Assembly (NCBI RefSeq): GCF_003966895.1
Contig: NZ_AP018449.1
Span: 1,061,424 to 1,125,423, forward strand
DNA length: 64,000 nt
Direction of reading: 5' to 3'
Origin: Methylomusa anaerophila
GTDB taxonomy: Bacteria; Bacillota; Negativicutes; Sporomusales; Sporomusaceae
The notes under the pieces: generated by a model
Databases searched by the model: none
What the model was told of the DNA's origin: nothing
Seen by the model: the letters and a program-made list of their open reading frames with translations, nothing else
Part shown: one piece after another, positions 58,881 to 64,000 of the stretch
Layout: every line of letters begins with the position of its first letter
How positions within the stretch are numbered: position 1 is the stretch's first letter
Made by a program: the position numbers and the translations under genes

Positions 58881-59087
58881 TTAACGGCCGGCAAGTTTTT
58901 CCTCCAAATGACGCACACGGGCTTCCAAATCCTCCAGCCTTTTTATTACCCGGTTAGACTCGTTGTCTTTTTCCGTACAGTCTTTCCGGTCCTCTTCCTT
59001 AATCCGGTCATGCAGTTCCAGCGTCAGCAGACTTGATATAATGCTTAACCAAATGATGGTAATTTCAAGTTCGTCGGTCGAGGCCAT
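58881..59087 (-). CDS. Small protein with hydrophobic N-terminus and coiled coil
   Basis: 68 residues: an N-terminal hydrophobic stretch (LEITIIWLSIISSLLTLEL, about 7-25) followed by a charged helix, with VIKRLEDLEARVRHLEEKLAG showing heptad spacing. AGGGGGA lies 6 bases before the ATG and a terminator follows, so it is likely real. It ends the minus-strand run after the radical SAM gene (71-base gap) and may belong to that transcript. No family recognised. Confidence 0.68.
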   Translation of the reverse strand: MASTDELEITIIWLSIISSLLTLELHDRIKEEDRKDCTEKDNESNRVIKRLEDLEARVRHLEEKLAGR

Positions 59088-59158
59088 ACCAAATCCCCCT
59101 ACAACACCCGCTTCATCCTATTTAATCTTATACATGGCGGCAAGGTTTCATGATTACA

Positions 59159-59770
59159 TTAATACTTAGTAAGGCTTCGGCGCTGTTCTTTTACAATTCC
59201 CGTAACAATTATTCTTCCCTGCCCATCAATGGTAAACTCCACCAATGATCCCGCCAATTTTTCCACCTGCGGGTGAGCTTGCAGCCGGTCTGTCAAATAA
59301 ACAGCTTCCTGATTGTCCGAACCGCACAGATACCGGTCGGACGGGCGATCCTGGAGATACGGTCCGGCAACCAGCAAGTCGGTAACCGCTAACAGTTGCG
59401 ACCAGGCAGGATTGTCGCCGGCGGTCAGTTCAGCAAGAGTATAGCCGCTGAACGCCACCACCGTTAATCCCTTTGCGTGCAAAATCTTTCCCAGTTCCCC
59501 CAGTGCCGCCGCCTGTTCAAACGGCTCGCCGCCGGAGAAGGTCACCCCTTCAATGCCGTTGATGCCTAAAATCCTGTCGGCAAGTTCCCGGACACCAATC
59601 AATTCCCGTTCGGTGAAAGGCTGCATGTCCTGGTTGAAACAGCCCGGGCAGCGCCGGTCACACCCTTGCACCCATACAACCGCCCTTAAGCCGGGACCGT
59701 TAACCCGGGAACGGGGTAAAAAGGCGGCCATATTGATGATCCGGGCGCCTAAATCGCGTATCCGGCTCAT
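59159..59770 (-). CDS. NrdG-like radical SAM activating enzyme
   Basis: 203 residues of the single-cluster radical SAM type. The cluster motif is C37-x3-C41-x2-C44 (VQGCDRRCPGCFNQ), then GVTFSGGEPFEQ and VAFSGYTL. It resembles anaerobic ribonucleotide reductase activators, but no nrdD is near, and it has its own C-terminal extension (VEKLAGSLVEFTIDGQGRIIVTGIVK). It overlaps DUF2997 by ATGA, so the two products are made together. A role in modifying or activating something in this cluster is inferred. Confidence 0.88.
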   Translation of the reverse strand: MSRIRDLGARIINMAAFLPRSRVNGPGLRAVVWVQGCDRRCPGCFNQDMQPFTERELIGVRELADRILGINGIEGVTFSGGEPFEQAAALGELGKILHAKGLTVVAFSGYTLAELTAGDNPAWSQLLAVTDLLVAGPYLQDRPSDRYLCGSDNQEAVYLTDRLQAHPQVEKLAGSLVEFTIDGQGRIIVTGIVKEQRRSLTKY

Positions 59771-59967
59771 CGCCGATTGGTCCGGATCTTATTGCCGTCA
59801 GCCGGGGCCTGGTAGTATTCGGGCGTAAACTCCCGCCGCTCCACTTCGCCCAGGGCTTCCTCCAGGTTTTTGGTGATATCAAGGCACTCACCGCCTTTGG
59901 CTCCGGCCACTTTTATCGATACTTTGCCATTGGCGTCAATGGTGATTTCAAGCTCCTGCTGATCCAT
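59767..59967 (-). CDS. DUF2997 family small protein
   Basis: 66 residues (LEITIDANGKVSIKVAGAKGGECLDITKNLEEALGEVERREFTPEYYQ). The DUF2997 fold is small, with one conserved GGECLD-type Cys. Its homologs occur with DUF1257 in cyanobacteria. Function unknown. AAAGGAGGG precedes the ATG, and the stop codon overlaps the radical SAM start. Confidence 0.86.
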   Translation of the reverse strand: MDQQELEITIDANGKVSIKVAGAKGGECLDITKNLEEALGEVERREFTPEYYQAPADGNKIRTNRR

Positions 59968-60051
59968 TAACCTTTACCCTCCTTTTTCTTCGGTAATAGC
60001 TCAACTTAGACAATTTCTAAGCAGACTTCCATGCCAATATATTAGGCACCA

Positions 60052-60236
60052 CAAGGAATGAAAATGGAAAACGTTTTACCGCAGAGGCGCAGAGGGCGCA
60101 GAGAAACGCAGAGGGATTCATTATTTATCGTTTTTCAACGCTCTTCGTTATCCTTTCTCTGTGTCCCTCTGTGTTCTCTGTGTCTCTGTGGTTCCGGTTC
60201 CTTTGTCTTACGGCGTTTTAGATTTCCAGGATAGTT
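60052..60236 (+). repeat. Family-3 dispersed repeat (CAGAG-rich), copy 2
   Basis: Reverse complement of the segment at 4423-4590, with about 15 extra bases in the CAGAGG run. It occupies most of the gap between the AAA ATPase gene and DUF2997 (59968-60262) and thus splits an otherwise tight gene cluster. Confidence 0.9.
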
Positions 60237-60262
60237 CGAGCCAATCCAATATCCGTCGTAAA

Positions 60263-61807
60263 TTATACTTCCTTGATTTCAAGCAGTACTTGACTGGCGC
60301 CTTCCTCGCCGGTCACTTCGCCGGGATAGGATGCCGACTGGGCCCGTCCTTCCTGCAGCCACTGGCGCAGATACTGGACAACTTCCCGCTGGGATACGGA
60401 TAAAGGAACCTGGCGTTTGAGACACAAGGCAATATCATCCGTCGTAATTTCCCGCATGCTGTCACTAAAGGCGAGATACATGGCATCAATAATGGATTGT
60501 TCGATTTCCGCCCCCACATAACCGTCTGATTCCCGCGCCAGCCGGTTGAGGTCGAAATCCCGGGGGGAACGGTTGCGCCGCCGCAGGTGAGTGGCGAAGA
60601 TCTCCCGCCGTTCAGACAGGTGGGGCAAATCCAGGAAAAAGATTTCGTCAAACCGTCCCTTGCGCATCAGTTCCGGCGGCAGGGCGGCAATATTGTTGGC
60701 GGTGGCGACGACAAAACAAGGGGCCTTCTTGTCCTGCATCCAGGTAAGTAAGGTAGCAAACACCCTTTGGCTCGTCCCGGCGTCGCCGGCGCCAAAAGCA
60801 AAGGCCTTTTCAATTTCATCAACCCATAAAATGCAGGGGGCGATAGTTTCAGCGATATGCAGCGCCCGCCGCGCCCGGTCCTCCGACTCGCCCACGTAAC
60901 TGCCGAACAGCGCTCCCACATCCAGGCGGAGCAGCGGCAGCTGCCACAGACTGCTGATCATCTTGGCGGTAAGGCTTTTGCCGGTACCGGGAATACCAAA
61001 GAGAGCAATGCCCTTGGGCGCAGGCAGGCCATAATCCCGGGCATCCTTGGTAAAGGCCTTCTCCCGCAGCCTGAGCCAGTCTTTCAAGACCCCCAGTCCG
61101 CCTACATTTTCCGGCTGCTCGGCTCCGCTCAGAAATTCCAAAGCTTCGCTTTGGCGAACCATCTCCGCCTTTTCTTCCGTTATCATGGAAATGCTGCGGT
61201 CATCCAGACAGCCGCAGGTAACAATGGCTTTGGAAAACACGCGGCGAGCCTGTCCGGCAGTCATGCCCATAGCGGCCTGAACCACTTTTTCCCGCCCGGC
61301 TTCGGTTAAGTTAAGCTTGACATTTGCCCCTTTAATGAGGCCATCCAATACGTTATCCAGTTCTTCACTGCCGGGCCGGCGCAGACGGACCACCACCGCT
61401 TCGTCCTGAAGCTCATCGGGAAGCTGGGAGGTAGGAGTGGTGATAATGATGGAAGTCCGGGTCTGGGTCAAGCGCTGGGCAATACTTCTGAGTTTACGCC
61501 GGATAGGCGGATTGGTCCAAAAATCGTGAAAATCCTTGCATATAAAAATTACGCCGCTGTTCTCAAGGCCGGTCTTTTCCATGAGATCCAAAGCCACCAG
61601 CGGGTCTTTGCATTTTAAATCCAGGGAAGTCCGGCCGGTCAGCACAGTAAAGCCGTCAGCCATATCCCAGGACAAGCAGGTGCGGTTTTTTTCCTGGCAC
61701 ACTGTTTTTACATTCTCGATAGCCCGCTCCTCTTCCGGGGTAACGATGACGATTAAGGTAAACCGGGCCCGGATATAGGTATCAAATTGCTCGGTGAAGT
61801 TTTCCAT
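60263..61807 (-). CDS. Ycf46-like AAA ATPase
   Basis: 514 residues. The N-terminal 230 are a degenerate AAA-like domain with no P-loop; the C-terminal half is an active AAA+ module with Walker A GIPGTGKS (271-278), Walker B ILWVDEIEKAF (326-336), sensor ATANN and arginine finger MRKGRFDEIF. This two-part layout is that of Ycf46 of cyanobacteria and algal plastids. GGAGAGG precedes the ATG. It follows DUF1257 after 25 bases, so both are in one transcript. Target unknown; by family it should remodel a protein complex. Confidence 0.9.
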   Translation of the reverse strand: MENFTEQFDTYIRARFTLIVIVTPEEERAIENVKTVCQEKNRTCLSWDMADGFTVLTGRTSLDLKCKDPLVALDLMEKTGLENSGVIFICKDFHDFWTNPPIRRKLRSIAQRLTQTRTSIIITTPTSQLPDELQDEAVVVRLRRPGSEELDNVLDGLIKGANVKLNLTEAGREKVVQAAMGMTAGQARRVFSKAIVTCGCLDDRSISMITEEKAEMVRQSEALEFLSGAEQPENVGGLGVLKDWLRLREKAFTKDARDYGLPAPKGIALFGIPGTGKSLTAKMISSLWQLPLLRLDVGALFGSYVGESEDRARRALHIAETIAPCILWVDEIEKAFAFGAGDAGTSQRVFATLLTWMQDKKAPCFVVATANNIAALPPELMRKGRFDEIFFLDLPHLSERREIFATHLRRRNRSPRDFDLNRLARESDGYVGAEIEQSIIDAMYLAFSDSMREITTDDIALCLKRQVPLSVSQREVVQYLRQWLQEGRAQSASYPGEVTGEEGASQVLLEIKEV

Positions 61808-61832
61808 ATCCTACCTCTCCTCTCCTTTTCTG

Positions 61833-62213
61833 TCACACCCAGCGGCGGACAACCAGGCGAATGGCCCCGTTGGCATCCCGCTCTTGCTCCACCAGATTAA
61901 ACCCCTGGCGATTTACCTGATCCATAACGGTAACCAAGGCATATTGCTGGTAAACCTTGGCGACAAAATCCTGTTCATTGGTTCCCTGGACTCCGAACCA
62001 GTCGGCAACAAAACTGTAGGTGCCGCCGGCGTCCAACACAAAACCCACGTCATACCCCTGGCGCATTCGTACAGCGATATCCACCCGGGTTTCCTGCCCC
62101 CGATACCCACGAATGGCTGCTTGTTCCTCAACCTCATAACCCAGGTCTTGTAAACACCGGATAAGCATTTCCTTATTGGCGATCTTGGTTGCCACCTGAC
62201 TAAAATGCGACAC
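61833..62213 (-). CDS. DUF1257 (Ycf35) family protein
   Basis: 126 residues: MSHFSQVATKIANKEMLIRCLQDLGYEVE, then VDIAVRMRQGYDVGFVLDAGGTYSFVADWFG and VYQQYALVTVMDQVNRQGFNLVEQE. These are clear Ycf35 marks. Function is unknown; the gene is found in cyanobacteria, plastids of red algae and some Firmicutes. It lies 17 bases after the Hsp70-like gene and 25 before the AAA gene. Confidence 0.9.
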   Translation of the reverse strand: MSHFSQVATKIANKEMLIRCLQDLGYEVEEQAAIRGYRGQETRVDIAVRMRQGYDVGFVLDAGGTYSFVADWFGVQGTNEQDFVAKVYQQYALVTVMDQVNRQGFNLVEQERDANGAIRLVVRRWV

Positions 62214-62230
62214 AAACTTTCCCTCCTGTC

Positions 62231-63754
62231 TTAGATTAACTGTGCCAAGGGTACATTATCAGCCAGAATTTCCCGACTTAGGAAGTCCCTCGCCGTGATG
62301 GTAAGCCTCCTGGCCCCGTCCAGGCCGAACTCAACTTCCACCGCCGGCTGCCCTTGTTTAAACGGCTGGGAACCGATCAAAATCAAAGGTTCATCTTTGT
62401 TAATGCAACTGCCTCCCTGTTCTTCCAGACGGTACGCCAGCAGAGCAAACTCCTGCTGGCCGTTGTAGCTGGCTCTGATAATTGCTTTGGCAACCAGGCC
62501 GTCACTGGGAAAAAACGTACCGCCGGCGACTACGGGAAGGTATTCATATATATCTCCCTGTAAATATCTTAAACCATAATCATACCGGATATAACCGCAG
62601 GTGTCTACTCCCGCCGCCAGAGTTGCCGCCCCGCAGGCAACCGCATCCAGCGGCCGTTGGTCGTAAACCGGGATGCCGGCAAAATACTCCCTGACCCAGG
62701 AGCGAATGCAAGGTATCAGGGCGGTTCCCCCCACCATAACCACTCCGTCCAGGGAGGAAATACCATGCCCCAGATGCTCACAGCGGCGCAGAGCCTGCCT
62801 TATATTATCTTCAATACGACTGAAGAACCGGTTATCCTCCAATAATTTTAGCAGCATTTCCCGCCTGATTACCGCCTGTAACTCGAAATCAGGCAGTGAG
62901 ATATTCACATCTGTTTCCGTTTGTACTGTCAGCCGCTCCTTGACCTTATTACAAATATCGACGATTTGACCGCGAACGGCTTCAACCGCCGCCGGGTTCA
63001 AACCCTGCGGTTTAATAAATTCGTCCGCCAGCCAATTGTCAATATCTTCTCCGCCCAGTTCGTCCTTAACCAAACCGATAATCCGGAAAAAGCGTTCTTC
63101 CCCTGTTTCCGACCTGGGTTCCGCCGTTACTACCGCGGTGTTAAGATTTCTACTCTCAATGTCAATAAACAGATAGGTACGGTACGGTTTCACCAGGCAG
63201 CCCGAGCCCCAGGCCGCCGCCAGCGGCTCCTCAACAAAGAATACCCGCCTTATACCGGCCTGCCTGGCCGCGCTTTCCAGCCACTGACGATATTTTTTTT
63301 CTAAAGCCGGATTGGCCAAAACCGTTACCGGCAGGGTAATTGTCATTCCCTTTTCCTGATTGGCCAGGCCCAAGGTGCTGGCGGCGTCGCCAATCACCCG
63401 GGTCAGGTAATCCATTGCTGCCTGAATCCGGCTGATCTGCCTGCCGCCAATTCGGCAATATACCTTTTTCCCAGTCGTCAAATCATACTTGAAATTGCGC
63501 AAAACCTGGCTTTGCGGCTCCAAATCCGCCAGGGAGTTATCAATTTCTTGCCCCACTTTGCAGCCGTCCGCGGCGTATTGAATGGTCGACGGGATGAGAA
63601 AAACTCCCGGCGAAGGGTCGGGTCCCTCGGTCCAATAGCGGGCCGGGTAGGAAATATCCGGTATAAATAAGGACTTAGCCCGCTGTTCTCCCTTATGCCA
63701 GTAGGCTACAACCGTATTTGCCGCCCCGAAATCCAAGGCAATTGTGCCAGTCAC
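62231..63754 (-). CDS. Hsp70-like actin-fold ATPase
   Basis: About 507 residues. Actin/Hsp70 ATPase: phosphate-1 motif TIALDFGAANTVVAYW (Asp about 8), FFVEEPLAAAWGSG, and the adenosine motif VVMVGGTALIPCIRSWV. The phosphate-2 loop, normally DxGGGT, reads FIDIESRNLNTAVV and lacks the glycines. The C-terminal part (from about 400) is a short beta-sandwich-like substrate domain (ADNVPLAQLI at the end) shorter than in DnaK. I start at GTG 63754, 11 bases after AAGGG; GTG 63763 is an alternative. The longer frame runs into a family-1 repeat. First gene of the cluster. Confidence 0.85.
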   Translation of the reverse strand: MTGTIALDFGAANTVVAYWHKGEQRAKSLFIPDISYPARYWTEGPDPSPGVFLIPSTIQYAADGCKVGQEIDNSLADLEPQSQVLRNFKYDLTTGKKVYCRIGGRQISRIQAAMDYLTRVIGDAASTLGLANQEKGMTITLPVTVLANPALEKKYRQWLESAARQAGIRRVFFVEEPLAAAWGSGCLVKPYRTYLFIDIESRNLNTAVVTAEPRSETGEERFFRIIGLVKDELGGEDIDNWLADEFIKPQGLNPAAVEAVRGQIVDICNKVKERLTVQTETDVNISLPDFELQAVIRREMLLKLLEDNRFFSRIEDNIRQALRRCEHLGHGISSLDGVVMVGGTALIPCIRSWVREYFAGIPVYDQRPLDAVACGAATLAAGVDTCGYIRYDYGLRYLQGDIYEYLPVVAGGTFFPSDGLVAKAIIRASYNGQQEFALLAYRLEEQGGSCINKDEPLILIGSQPFKQGQPAVEVEFGLDGARRLTITARDFLSREILADNVPLAQLI

Positions 63755-63772
63755 CGTCGCCACCGCCCTTTT

Positions 63773-63899
63773 TGAGAGTGTTGAAAAAGCGCATCTGCGT
63801 CGTTGACACTCCGGTTGCTTTGCTTGCGTACAAACCACGTACGCGGCGCGGCGCAATCCTCGCGTCGCCTAGCATATGCATCTTTTTGAACACTCTCAA
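63773..63899. repeat. Family-1 dispersed element, copy k (GAGAGTGTT arms)
   Basis: Arms TTGAGAGTGTTGAAAAAG and CTTTTTGAACACTCTCAA, unlike any other copy. The core CATCTGCGTCGTTG and CGTCGCCTAGCATATG is conserved, the middle diverged. It reaches to 5 bases from the stop codon of the partial gene at 63904. Confidence 0.85.
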
Positions 63900-63903
63900 G
63901 ATA

Positions 63904-63999
63904 TTAGAACATTATATCCCGCCGGAATTTGGCCGTCAGCACAGTATTAAGAAATTGACAGATTTGTCGCTGCTCATTATTTAACTCGCCAGACGCATC
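63904..63999 (-). CDS. Partial C-terminus of an unknown gene (cut by window end)
   Basis: A minus-strand frame stays open from the window end to a TAA at 63904-63906. It gives 31 residues (GELNNEQRQICQFLNTVL, then TAKFRRDIMF). Family unknown. The position just before a family-1 element, as at other gene ends here, supports a real gene end. Confidence 0.35.
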   Translation of the reverse strand, partial: DASGELNNEQRQICQFLNTVLTAKFRRDIMF

Positions 64000-64000
64000 C

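Follow-up and report, generated by a model that had tools for sequence, protein, structure and literature searches.

The genome of Methylomusa anaerophila (GCF_003966895.1) carries, within the 64,000-nt window analysed here (NZ_AP018449.1 positions 1,061,424-1,125,423), a row of five minus-strand genes that encode, in order of transcription, an Hsp70-like protein, a DUF1257 (Ycf35) protein, a Ycf46-type AAA ATPase, a DUF2997 protein, and a NrdG-like radical S-adenosylmethionine (SAM) protein. We find that the AAA ATPase, DUF1257, and DUF2997, frequently with the radical-SAM protein and with further Hsp70/GrpE and HEAT-WD40 modules, almost certainly constitute a functional unit, because these families recur in scrambled order, occur as a DUF1257-DUF2997 fusion, and diverge in a correlated manner across unrelated genomes, plasmids, and phages. 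That this unit is an ATP-driven protein-remodelling machine coupled to iron-sulfur or radical chemistry is a proposal to which we give about an even chance of being right. Ycf35 and Ycf46 are known mainly from cyanobacteria and algal plastids. A first-pass annotation of this DNA had nevertheless proposed a shared machine not tied to photosynthesis, and this is borne out by finding these families linked in other phyla as well, and on plasmids and in phages.

Results

The coordinates, strand, and spacing of the five genes are as the first-pass annotation described them, with gaps of 17 bases between the Hsp70-like and DUF1257 genes and 25 bases between DUF1257 and AAA, and with a 4-base ATGA overlap between DUF2997 and the radical-SAM gene (Table 1). 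Its five family assignments likewise hold, with Pfam scores above the family cut-offs for PF00012 (20.6 bits), PF06868 (22.2), PF11211 (24.1), and PF13353 (22.0). All 10 same-family genomes with a DUF1257 match, the named ones being Sporomusa species, have the full cassette, always in the order cydA-cydB-HEAT/WD40-Hsp70-DUF1257-AAA-DUF2997-radical SAM. Ten conserved cassettes out of ten mean that the five-gene arrangement exceeds chance; the adjacency is not peculiar to M. anaerophila, and its relatives keep the full set rather than losing parts at random. DUF1257 had no match in sampled genomes from other families of the same order or class, and a close Ycf46-type AAA (86-87% identity) is confined to the same ten genomes, with only diverged AAA genes in two further ones.

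Outside the family, loci were found by searches with DUF1257 and AAA followed by direct reading of the neighborhoods. The same families appear there in scrambled order at many unrelated loci (L257, L258, L259, L238/239, L249-251, L074, L072, L255, and L261). In Candidatus Obscuribacterales the order is AAA-DUF1257-DUF2997-radical SAM (L072) or a GrpE-Hsp70 pair divergent from DUF2997-radical SAM-AAA-DUF1257 (L238, L239); another locus from the same class reads two DUF1257 genes-DUF2997-radical SAM-AAA-HEAT-GrpE-Hsp70 (L257), with more in L258, L259, and L261. The Cyanobacteriota at these loci are non-photosynthetic. A metagenome-assembled genome (MAG) of the Bacteroidia has HEAT-GrpE-Hsp70-DUF1257-DUF2997-radical SAM, with AAA on a separate contig (L074), and another small phylum has DUF1257-DUF2997-Hsp70-HEAT-AAA-radical SAM (L249-251; also L255). 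Among 24 representative loci, AAA is present in 22, DUF2997 in 20, radical SAM in 10, the Hsp70-like gene in 9, GrpE in 8, and HEAT in 5. The distribution is sparse, DUF1257 being found in 4 of 348 Bacillota genomes and 3 of 296 Bacteroidota genomes (one of the three a strong match), and some cassettes lie beside mobile-element genes.

Plasmids and phages also carry the set. The annotated Paenibacillus polymyxa M1 plasmid (NC_017543) encodes AAA-DUF1257-DUF2997-[4Fe-4S] protein, and a Pseudanabaena galeata plasmid encodes GrpE-Hsp70-DUF1257-DUF2997-AAA with HEAT proteins flanking both sides. On the Treponema succinifaciens plasmid pTRESU01 (L023, L383), radical SAM-AAA directly precedes a baseplate V gene; its DUF1257 sits elsewhere on the plasmid, inside a contractile tail gene cluster. 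Viral contigs commonly carry the Ycf46-type AAA, and some of these contigs span several hundred kilobases. Both DUF1257 and DUF2997 lie within ~8 kb of it at 20 of 80 viral AAA loci, and ten carry a radical-SAM match as well, two of these ten being cut by a contig end. A viral scan with the single protein P0002 gave no match. Cyanophages have the DUF2997-DUF1257 pair alone, and in marine viral contigs (L110-L189) the pair lies beside structural proteins, a DNA polymerase region (P-SSM5), or a psbA-like gene, resembling auxiliary host-derived genes. Several phage cassettes with a radical-SAM gene have a ThiF/E1-like gene (L267, L277) or a JAB-like gene (L287) nearby; these neighbors, together with a small protein ending in Gly-Gly-Phe in L267, recall ubiquitin-like systems. 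In L267 and L277 a RecA-like ATPase follows AAA.

Two further observations bear on whether the genes belong together. Two Bacillota genomes encode a DUF1257-DUF2997 fusion protein of 222 aa, its gene lying downstream of a TnpB-like one (L190:1438-2106, L191); no such fusion was found in phages. Pairwise distances of AAA, DUF1257, and radical-SAM proteins correlate across 14 loci (r 0.75-0.80, Mantel P 0.0001) and still do so in a reduced set of ten (0.55-0.66, P ≤0.002). That these are separate genes joined by operon growth would agree with the variation of gene order between phyla and the missing parts at some loci, but repeated re-linkage in unrelated genomes, plasmids, and phages, the fusion, and the correlated divergence strongly disfavor this explanation, which we consider scarcely credible.

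The AAA protein matches classical AAA domain models as well as CDC48/FtsH-type models, and its C-terminal half retains Walker A (GIPGTGKS), Walker B, and the GRFDE region. The first-pass annotation took the N-terminal half for a dead ATPase-like domain. This is plausible, as that half has no Walker A, and its profile match to the C-terminal domain is collinear but weak (probability 1.6%, E 0.03). Similarity to the best cyanobacterial copies, which we take from family knowledge to be ycf46 genes, extends over residues 3-497 at 40-45% identity and thus includes the N-terminal half; the phage family phrog_8638 also matches over nearly the whole length. At one locus (L073:6881-9100), an N-terminal Ser/Thr protein kinase domain is fused to a Ycf46-type AAA, followed by DUF1257.

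The AlphaFold2 model of DUF1257 is a mixed alpha/beta domain with a mean predicted local-distance difference test (pLDDT) score of 90. No PDB relative of the model stands out, the best Foldseek E value being 0.076 and the VIA-align Z scores not exceeding 7.0 (for KA1-like domains), a level that common arrangements also reach; the KA1-like, phosphoglucomutase, and BamC matches do not rise above noise. The C-terminus may have a TusA-like resemblance (E 0.05). DUF2997 is modelled with moderate confidence (mean pLDDT 72) as a beta-hairpin plus a helix, the only well-formed one, which has Cys28 at its start. Its profile found only the CopA metal-binding domain in the PDB (E 0.06), a beta-loop-Cys-helix resemblance that is suggestive and that we do not take as evidence.

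Gly14, Cys28, Leu39, and Gly40 of DUF2997 are invariant. An invariant Gly and Cys would suit a carrier or a substrate like those of ribosomally synthesized and post-translationally modified peptides, modified by the radical-SAM enzyme inside an AAA/DUF1257 complex and then serving as a redox or radical cofactor. The position of Cys28 in the model and the 4-base overlap with the radical-SAM gene in all ten family members, with the two genes nearby in several other lineages, speak for such a role. However, the Cys is equally invariant in cyanobacterial and viral DUF2997 copies that have no adjacent radical-SAM gene and is therefore not necessarily a radical-SAM target, and we consider the idea unlikely. 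Cys28 is thus a core feature of DUF2997 that does not by itself mark a target of the enzyme.

The radical-SAM protein retains the core motifs CxxxCxxC and SGGEP, and catalysis is therefore likely. It shares with NrdG the radical-SAM core, these motifs, and a small size, and its nearest PDB sequence is pyruvate formate-lyase activase. It could thus simply be a conventional activase, acting on class III ribonucleotide reductase or another glycyl-radical enzyme, its neighbors helping as BssE may for benzylsuccinate synthase, and bss operons do encode, beside an activase, an AAA protein whose function is uncertain (PMC7285207). Several findings lead us to doubt this. The protein scores 81.4 bits against the NrdG model TIGR02491, below the cut-off of 126.1, and the cassette radical-SAM proteins of this and other bacterial phyla and of phages form one clade apart from the sampled canonical NrdG (support 98/98), in a tree with few NrdG sequences and some long branches. 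M. anaerophila has a canonical NrdG adjoining NrdD elsewhere in its genome, and NrdD was not found in eight cassette genomes of other lineages, several of them incomplete MAGs, so that activation of class III ribonucleotide reductase is disfavored as a common role. Reading the listed clusters, without a glycyl-radical profile scan, turned up no gene for a glycyl-radical enzyme.

The Hsp70-like protein occupies the same operon position in all ten relatives. ATP binding by Hsp70 requires the phosphate-2 motif (D-L/F-G-G/A-G-T/S). In M. anaerophila this motif is degenerate (DIESRN instead of DFGGGT), and it is gone from every Sporomusa-family protein aligned; the adenosine motif is lost from most of them, M. 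anaerophila retaining it. Cassettes of other lineages keep all three ATP-binding motifs intact and usually have GrpE adjoining the Hsp70-like gene, whereas Sporomusa-family cassettes have no GrpE gene. With the phosphate-2 motif lost and no GrpE in the cassette, the Sporomusa-family protein may be a pseudo-ATPase, perhaps still capable of binding. The first-pass annotation called it an ATPase; the loss of the motif does not support a working ATPase in this lineage. Pfam detected no J-domain partner near two other loci (L258, L262).

The first-pass annotation was silent on the gene context of the cassette, namely the wide AAA/DUF2997 gap, the HEAT-WD40 gene, cydAB, GrpE in other lineages, and carriage by phages and plasmids. 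The operon begins beyond the window: upstream of the Hsp70-like gene lies the HEAT-WD40 gene, further upstream cydB, and then cydA, preceded in at least one relative by a gene for an Rrf2-type regulator. The HEAT-WD40 protein (L011:9328-11505; Pfam WD40, E 9.7e-30) shares homology with its HEAT-WD40 counterparts on the Pseudanabaena plasmid and in the Bacteroidia cassettes. Because the unit shares one operon with cytochrome bd oxidase, it probably serves the Sporomusa family in coping with oxygen or iron stress. Beside one cassette copy in another lineage, a gene read by eye as superoxide dismutase (L239:6235-6951) is a second oxygen-related neighbor.

Table 1. Features at the cassette locus, in window coordinates
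Feature	Position	Strand	Details
3' end of HEAT-WD40 gene	63904..64000	-	725 aa; extends to ~66081 beyond the window
Hsp70-like actin-fold protein, 507 aa	62231..63754	-	GTG start; PF00012 60.6 bits; motif alignment
DUF1257 (Ycf35), 126 aa	61833..62213	-	PF06868 99.0 bits
Ycf46-type AAA ATPase, 514 aa	60263..61807	-	PF00004 100.5 bits, AAA_lid_3
Genome-wide repeat element between AAA and DUF2997	60030..60230		36 matches in own genome; outside the system
DUF2997, 66 aa	59767..59967	-	PF11211 69.7 bits; Cys28 invariant
NrdG-like radical SAM protein, 203 aa	59159..59770	-	PF13353 98.5 bits; CxxxCxxC, SGGEP

The AAA/DUF2997 gap is 295 bases in M. anaerophila and 3-31 bases or a short overlap in its relatives. 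It holds a CACAGAG/CGCAGAGG-rich repeat of ~200 bp, an insertion found only in M. anaerophila among the family cassettes, whose matches across the genome reach 93% identity, several exceeding 90%. An alternative TTG start for the Hsp70-like gene lies upstream at 63856. Between the HEAT-WD40 stop and the Hsp70-like start is a near-perfect 18-nt inverted repeat (63772-63789 and 63882-63899, 92 nt apart), perhaps another repeat element or an attenuator. A small open reading frame at 58881-59087 encodes 68 aa, hydrophobic in a stretch near the N-terminus and charged toward the C-terminus, that match PspB weakly (E 0.025); it has no counterpart in any relative searched, and we rejected it as a sixth member.

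Discussion

Gene content, conservation, co-inheritance, motif states, and the cyd linkage are established by the results above; how the proteins of a remodelling machine would assemble, in what sequence they would act, on which client, and by what reaction is our inference. The core of the machine would be a Ycf46-type AAA ring, a DUF1257-DUF2997 pair acting as adaptor or core subunit, and a dedicated radical-SAM enzyme of the NrdG-like clade; most of the larger bacterial versions also have an Hsp70-like protein, its GrpE partner, and a HEAT-WD40 scaffold, which would bring in the client. The HEAT-WD40/Hsp70 part would recognize the client, the DUF1257-DUF2997 pair would hand it to the AAA ring, and the ring would open it, whereupon the radical-SAM enzyme, or the ferredoxin Fed7 in photosynthetic cyanobacteria, would modify, activate, or re-reduce either the client or DUF2997 itself. 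The cyd operon and the cyanobacterial stress data suggest that, in the Sporomusa family, the client is tied to oxygen respiration or oxygen defense. The first-pass suggestion of assembly or repair of a metalloprotein or cluster is circumstantial: it fits the cydAB linkage, the iron-sulfur partner, the fed7 mutant phenotypes (PMC4284462), and the stress induction of the ycf46 operon (PMC7496141).

A number of observations weigh against such a machine. The radical-SAM gene is missing at several loci that have AAA, DUF1257, and DUF2997 (L252, L254, L260, L261, and cyanobacterial plasmids), and it is therefore either not always needed or located elsewhere. Many phage AAA genes lack DUF1257 or DUF2997 within the ~8 kb considered. 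To judge from its altered nucleotide-binding motifs, the chaperone arm of the Sporomusa family may not cycle ATP, and the cyd linkage is limited to that family.

We also considered a hitherto unrecognized, mobile protein-modification machine, in which the AAA unfoldase, an Hsp70/GrpE arm, and DUF1257-DUF2997 would present a folded client to the dedicated radical-SAM enzyme, allowing radical chemistry on protein sites exposed by ATP-driven unfolding. The plastid and cyanobacterial Ycf35/Ycf46 would then be the surviving half of the machine, a ferredoxin having replaced the radical-SAM enzyme. We regard this version as conceivable but rather unlikely. The patchy distribution, plasmid and phage carriage, and mobile-element neighbors could point to an anti-phage or inter-element conflict system, in which HEAT-WD40 and the Hsp70-like protein sense, AAA switches, and the radical-SAM protein is the effector, with partial sets in phages as counter-measures. 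However, PADLOC 2.0.0 returned only generic AAA (IetA) and WD40/HEAT matches for the proteins of the window and one weak match to a Pseudanabaena GrpE, the copy in every cassette-bearing member of the Sporomusa family is fixed in the cydAB operon, and DUF2997-DUF1257-fed7 persists as a conserved cluster in photosynthetic cyanobacteria (PMC4284462). Nor was a variable effector domain seen, and the phage sets share their core genes with the bacterial ones. We therefore think a conflict function improbable, and a known defense system can be set aside, DUF1257 and Ycf46 being absent from the closest survey (PMC7159879).

The cassette has a parallel in photosynthetic cyanobacteria. Of the 72 genome loci in our DUF1257 scan, which are almost all cyanobacterial, 64 encode a ferredoxin with a CxxCxxC motif as the next gene after DUF1257, and the published cyanobacterial cluster g is duf2997-ycf35-fed7 (PMC4284462). 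Fed7 thus usually stands beside DUF2997-DUF1257 where the radical-SAM gene would be, and the two genes may be functional replacements of each other. Fed7 binds a DnaJ-domain protein, and its loss makes cells sensitive both to iron limitation and to oxidative stress (PMC4284462). The cyanobacterial and the cassette sides thus each have, by different means, a [4Fe-4S] protein and an Hsp70-related partner. Shortage of iron, sulfur, or nitrogen, high light, and oxidative stress all elicit a response of the Synechocystis ycf46 (slr0374) operon (PMC7496141). The freshwater red algal plastids of one study lack both ycf35 and ycf46 (PMC5940233).

Both genes have been retained on algal plastids without a defined function. 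Their place in a module that anaerobes, plasmids, and phages also carry detaches them from photosynthesis and supplies concrete, testable partners in DUF2997 and a new radical-SAM clade. The module further suggests that AAA/Hsp70 remodelling is linked to radical chemistry, and it lies in the cytochrome bd operon of acetogens. The four-gene version on the P. polymyxa M1 plasmid would be convenient for biochemistry.

Each known system that we compared shares some features with the cassette and departs from it in others. Cluster g likewise has DUF2997 and DUF1257 adjacent to a [4Fe-4S] protein, with a published link to DnaJ, iron, and oxidative stress (PMC4284462), but that protein is a ferredoxin rather than a radical-SAM enzyme, the Ycf46 AAA is at a separate locus, and there is no Hsp70, GrpE, or HEAT-WD40 gene. 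Ycf46 of Synechocystis and plastids is similar over the full length of the AAA protein and belongs to a stress-responsive operon (PMC7496141; PMC5940233), but work on it has been confined to phototrophs and to CO2 use and light, and no radical-SAM, DUF2997, or Hsp70 partners are known there. NrdG differs from the cassette enzyme in family score, clade, and pairing with NrdD, as described above. BssD/BssE resembles the cassette in that an activase is encoded with a chaperone-type AAA ATPase (PMC7285207); however, bss operons carry a glycyl-radical enzyme and the vWA protein BssF, neither of which was seen in the cassettes, and DUF1257 and DUF2997 are outside the described bss set. The MoxR-vWA and Hsp70/GTPase conflict systems also combine chaperone ATPases with HEAT and WD40 scaffolds, sometimes with Hsp70-GrpE (PMC7159879), but their AAA proteins belong to another clade, and no vWA, MoxR, or GTPase was seen among the cassette genes, some flanking genes being unscanned. 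A literature search, with many subscription papers outside its reach, found no paper that brings a radical-SAM enzyme together with Ycf46, Ycf35, and DUF2997 in one set. Its component families have been described, as has the three-gene cluster of cyanobacteria (PMC4284462), and the parts are accordingly not new, but because none of the systems compared fits as a home for the whole set, the set is new as a system.

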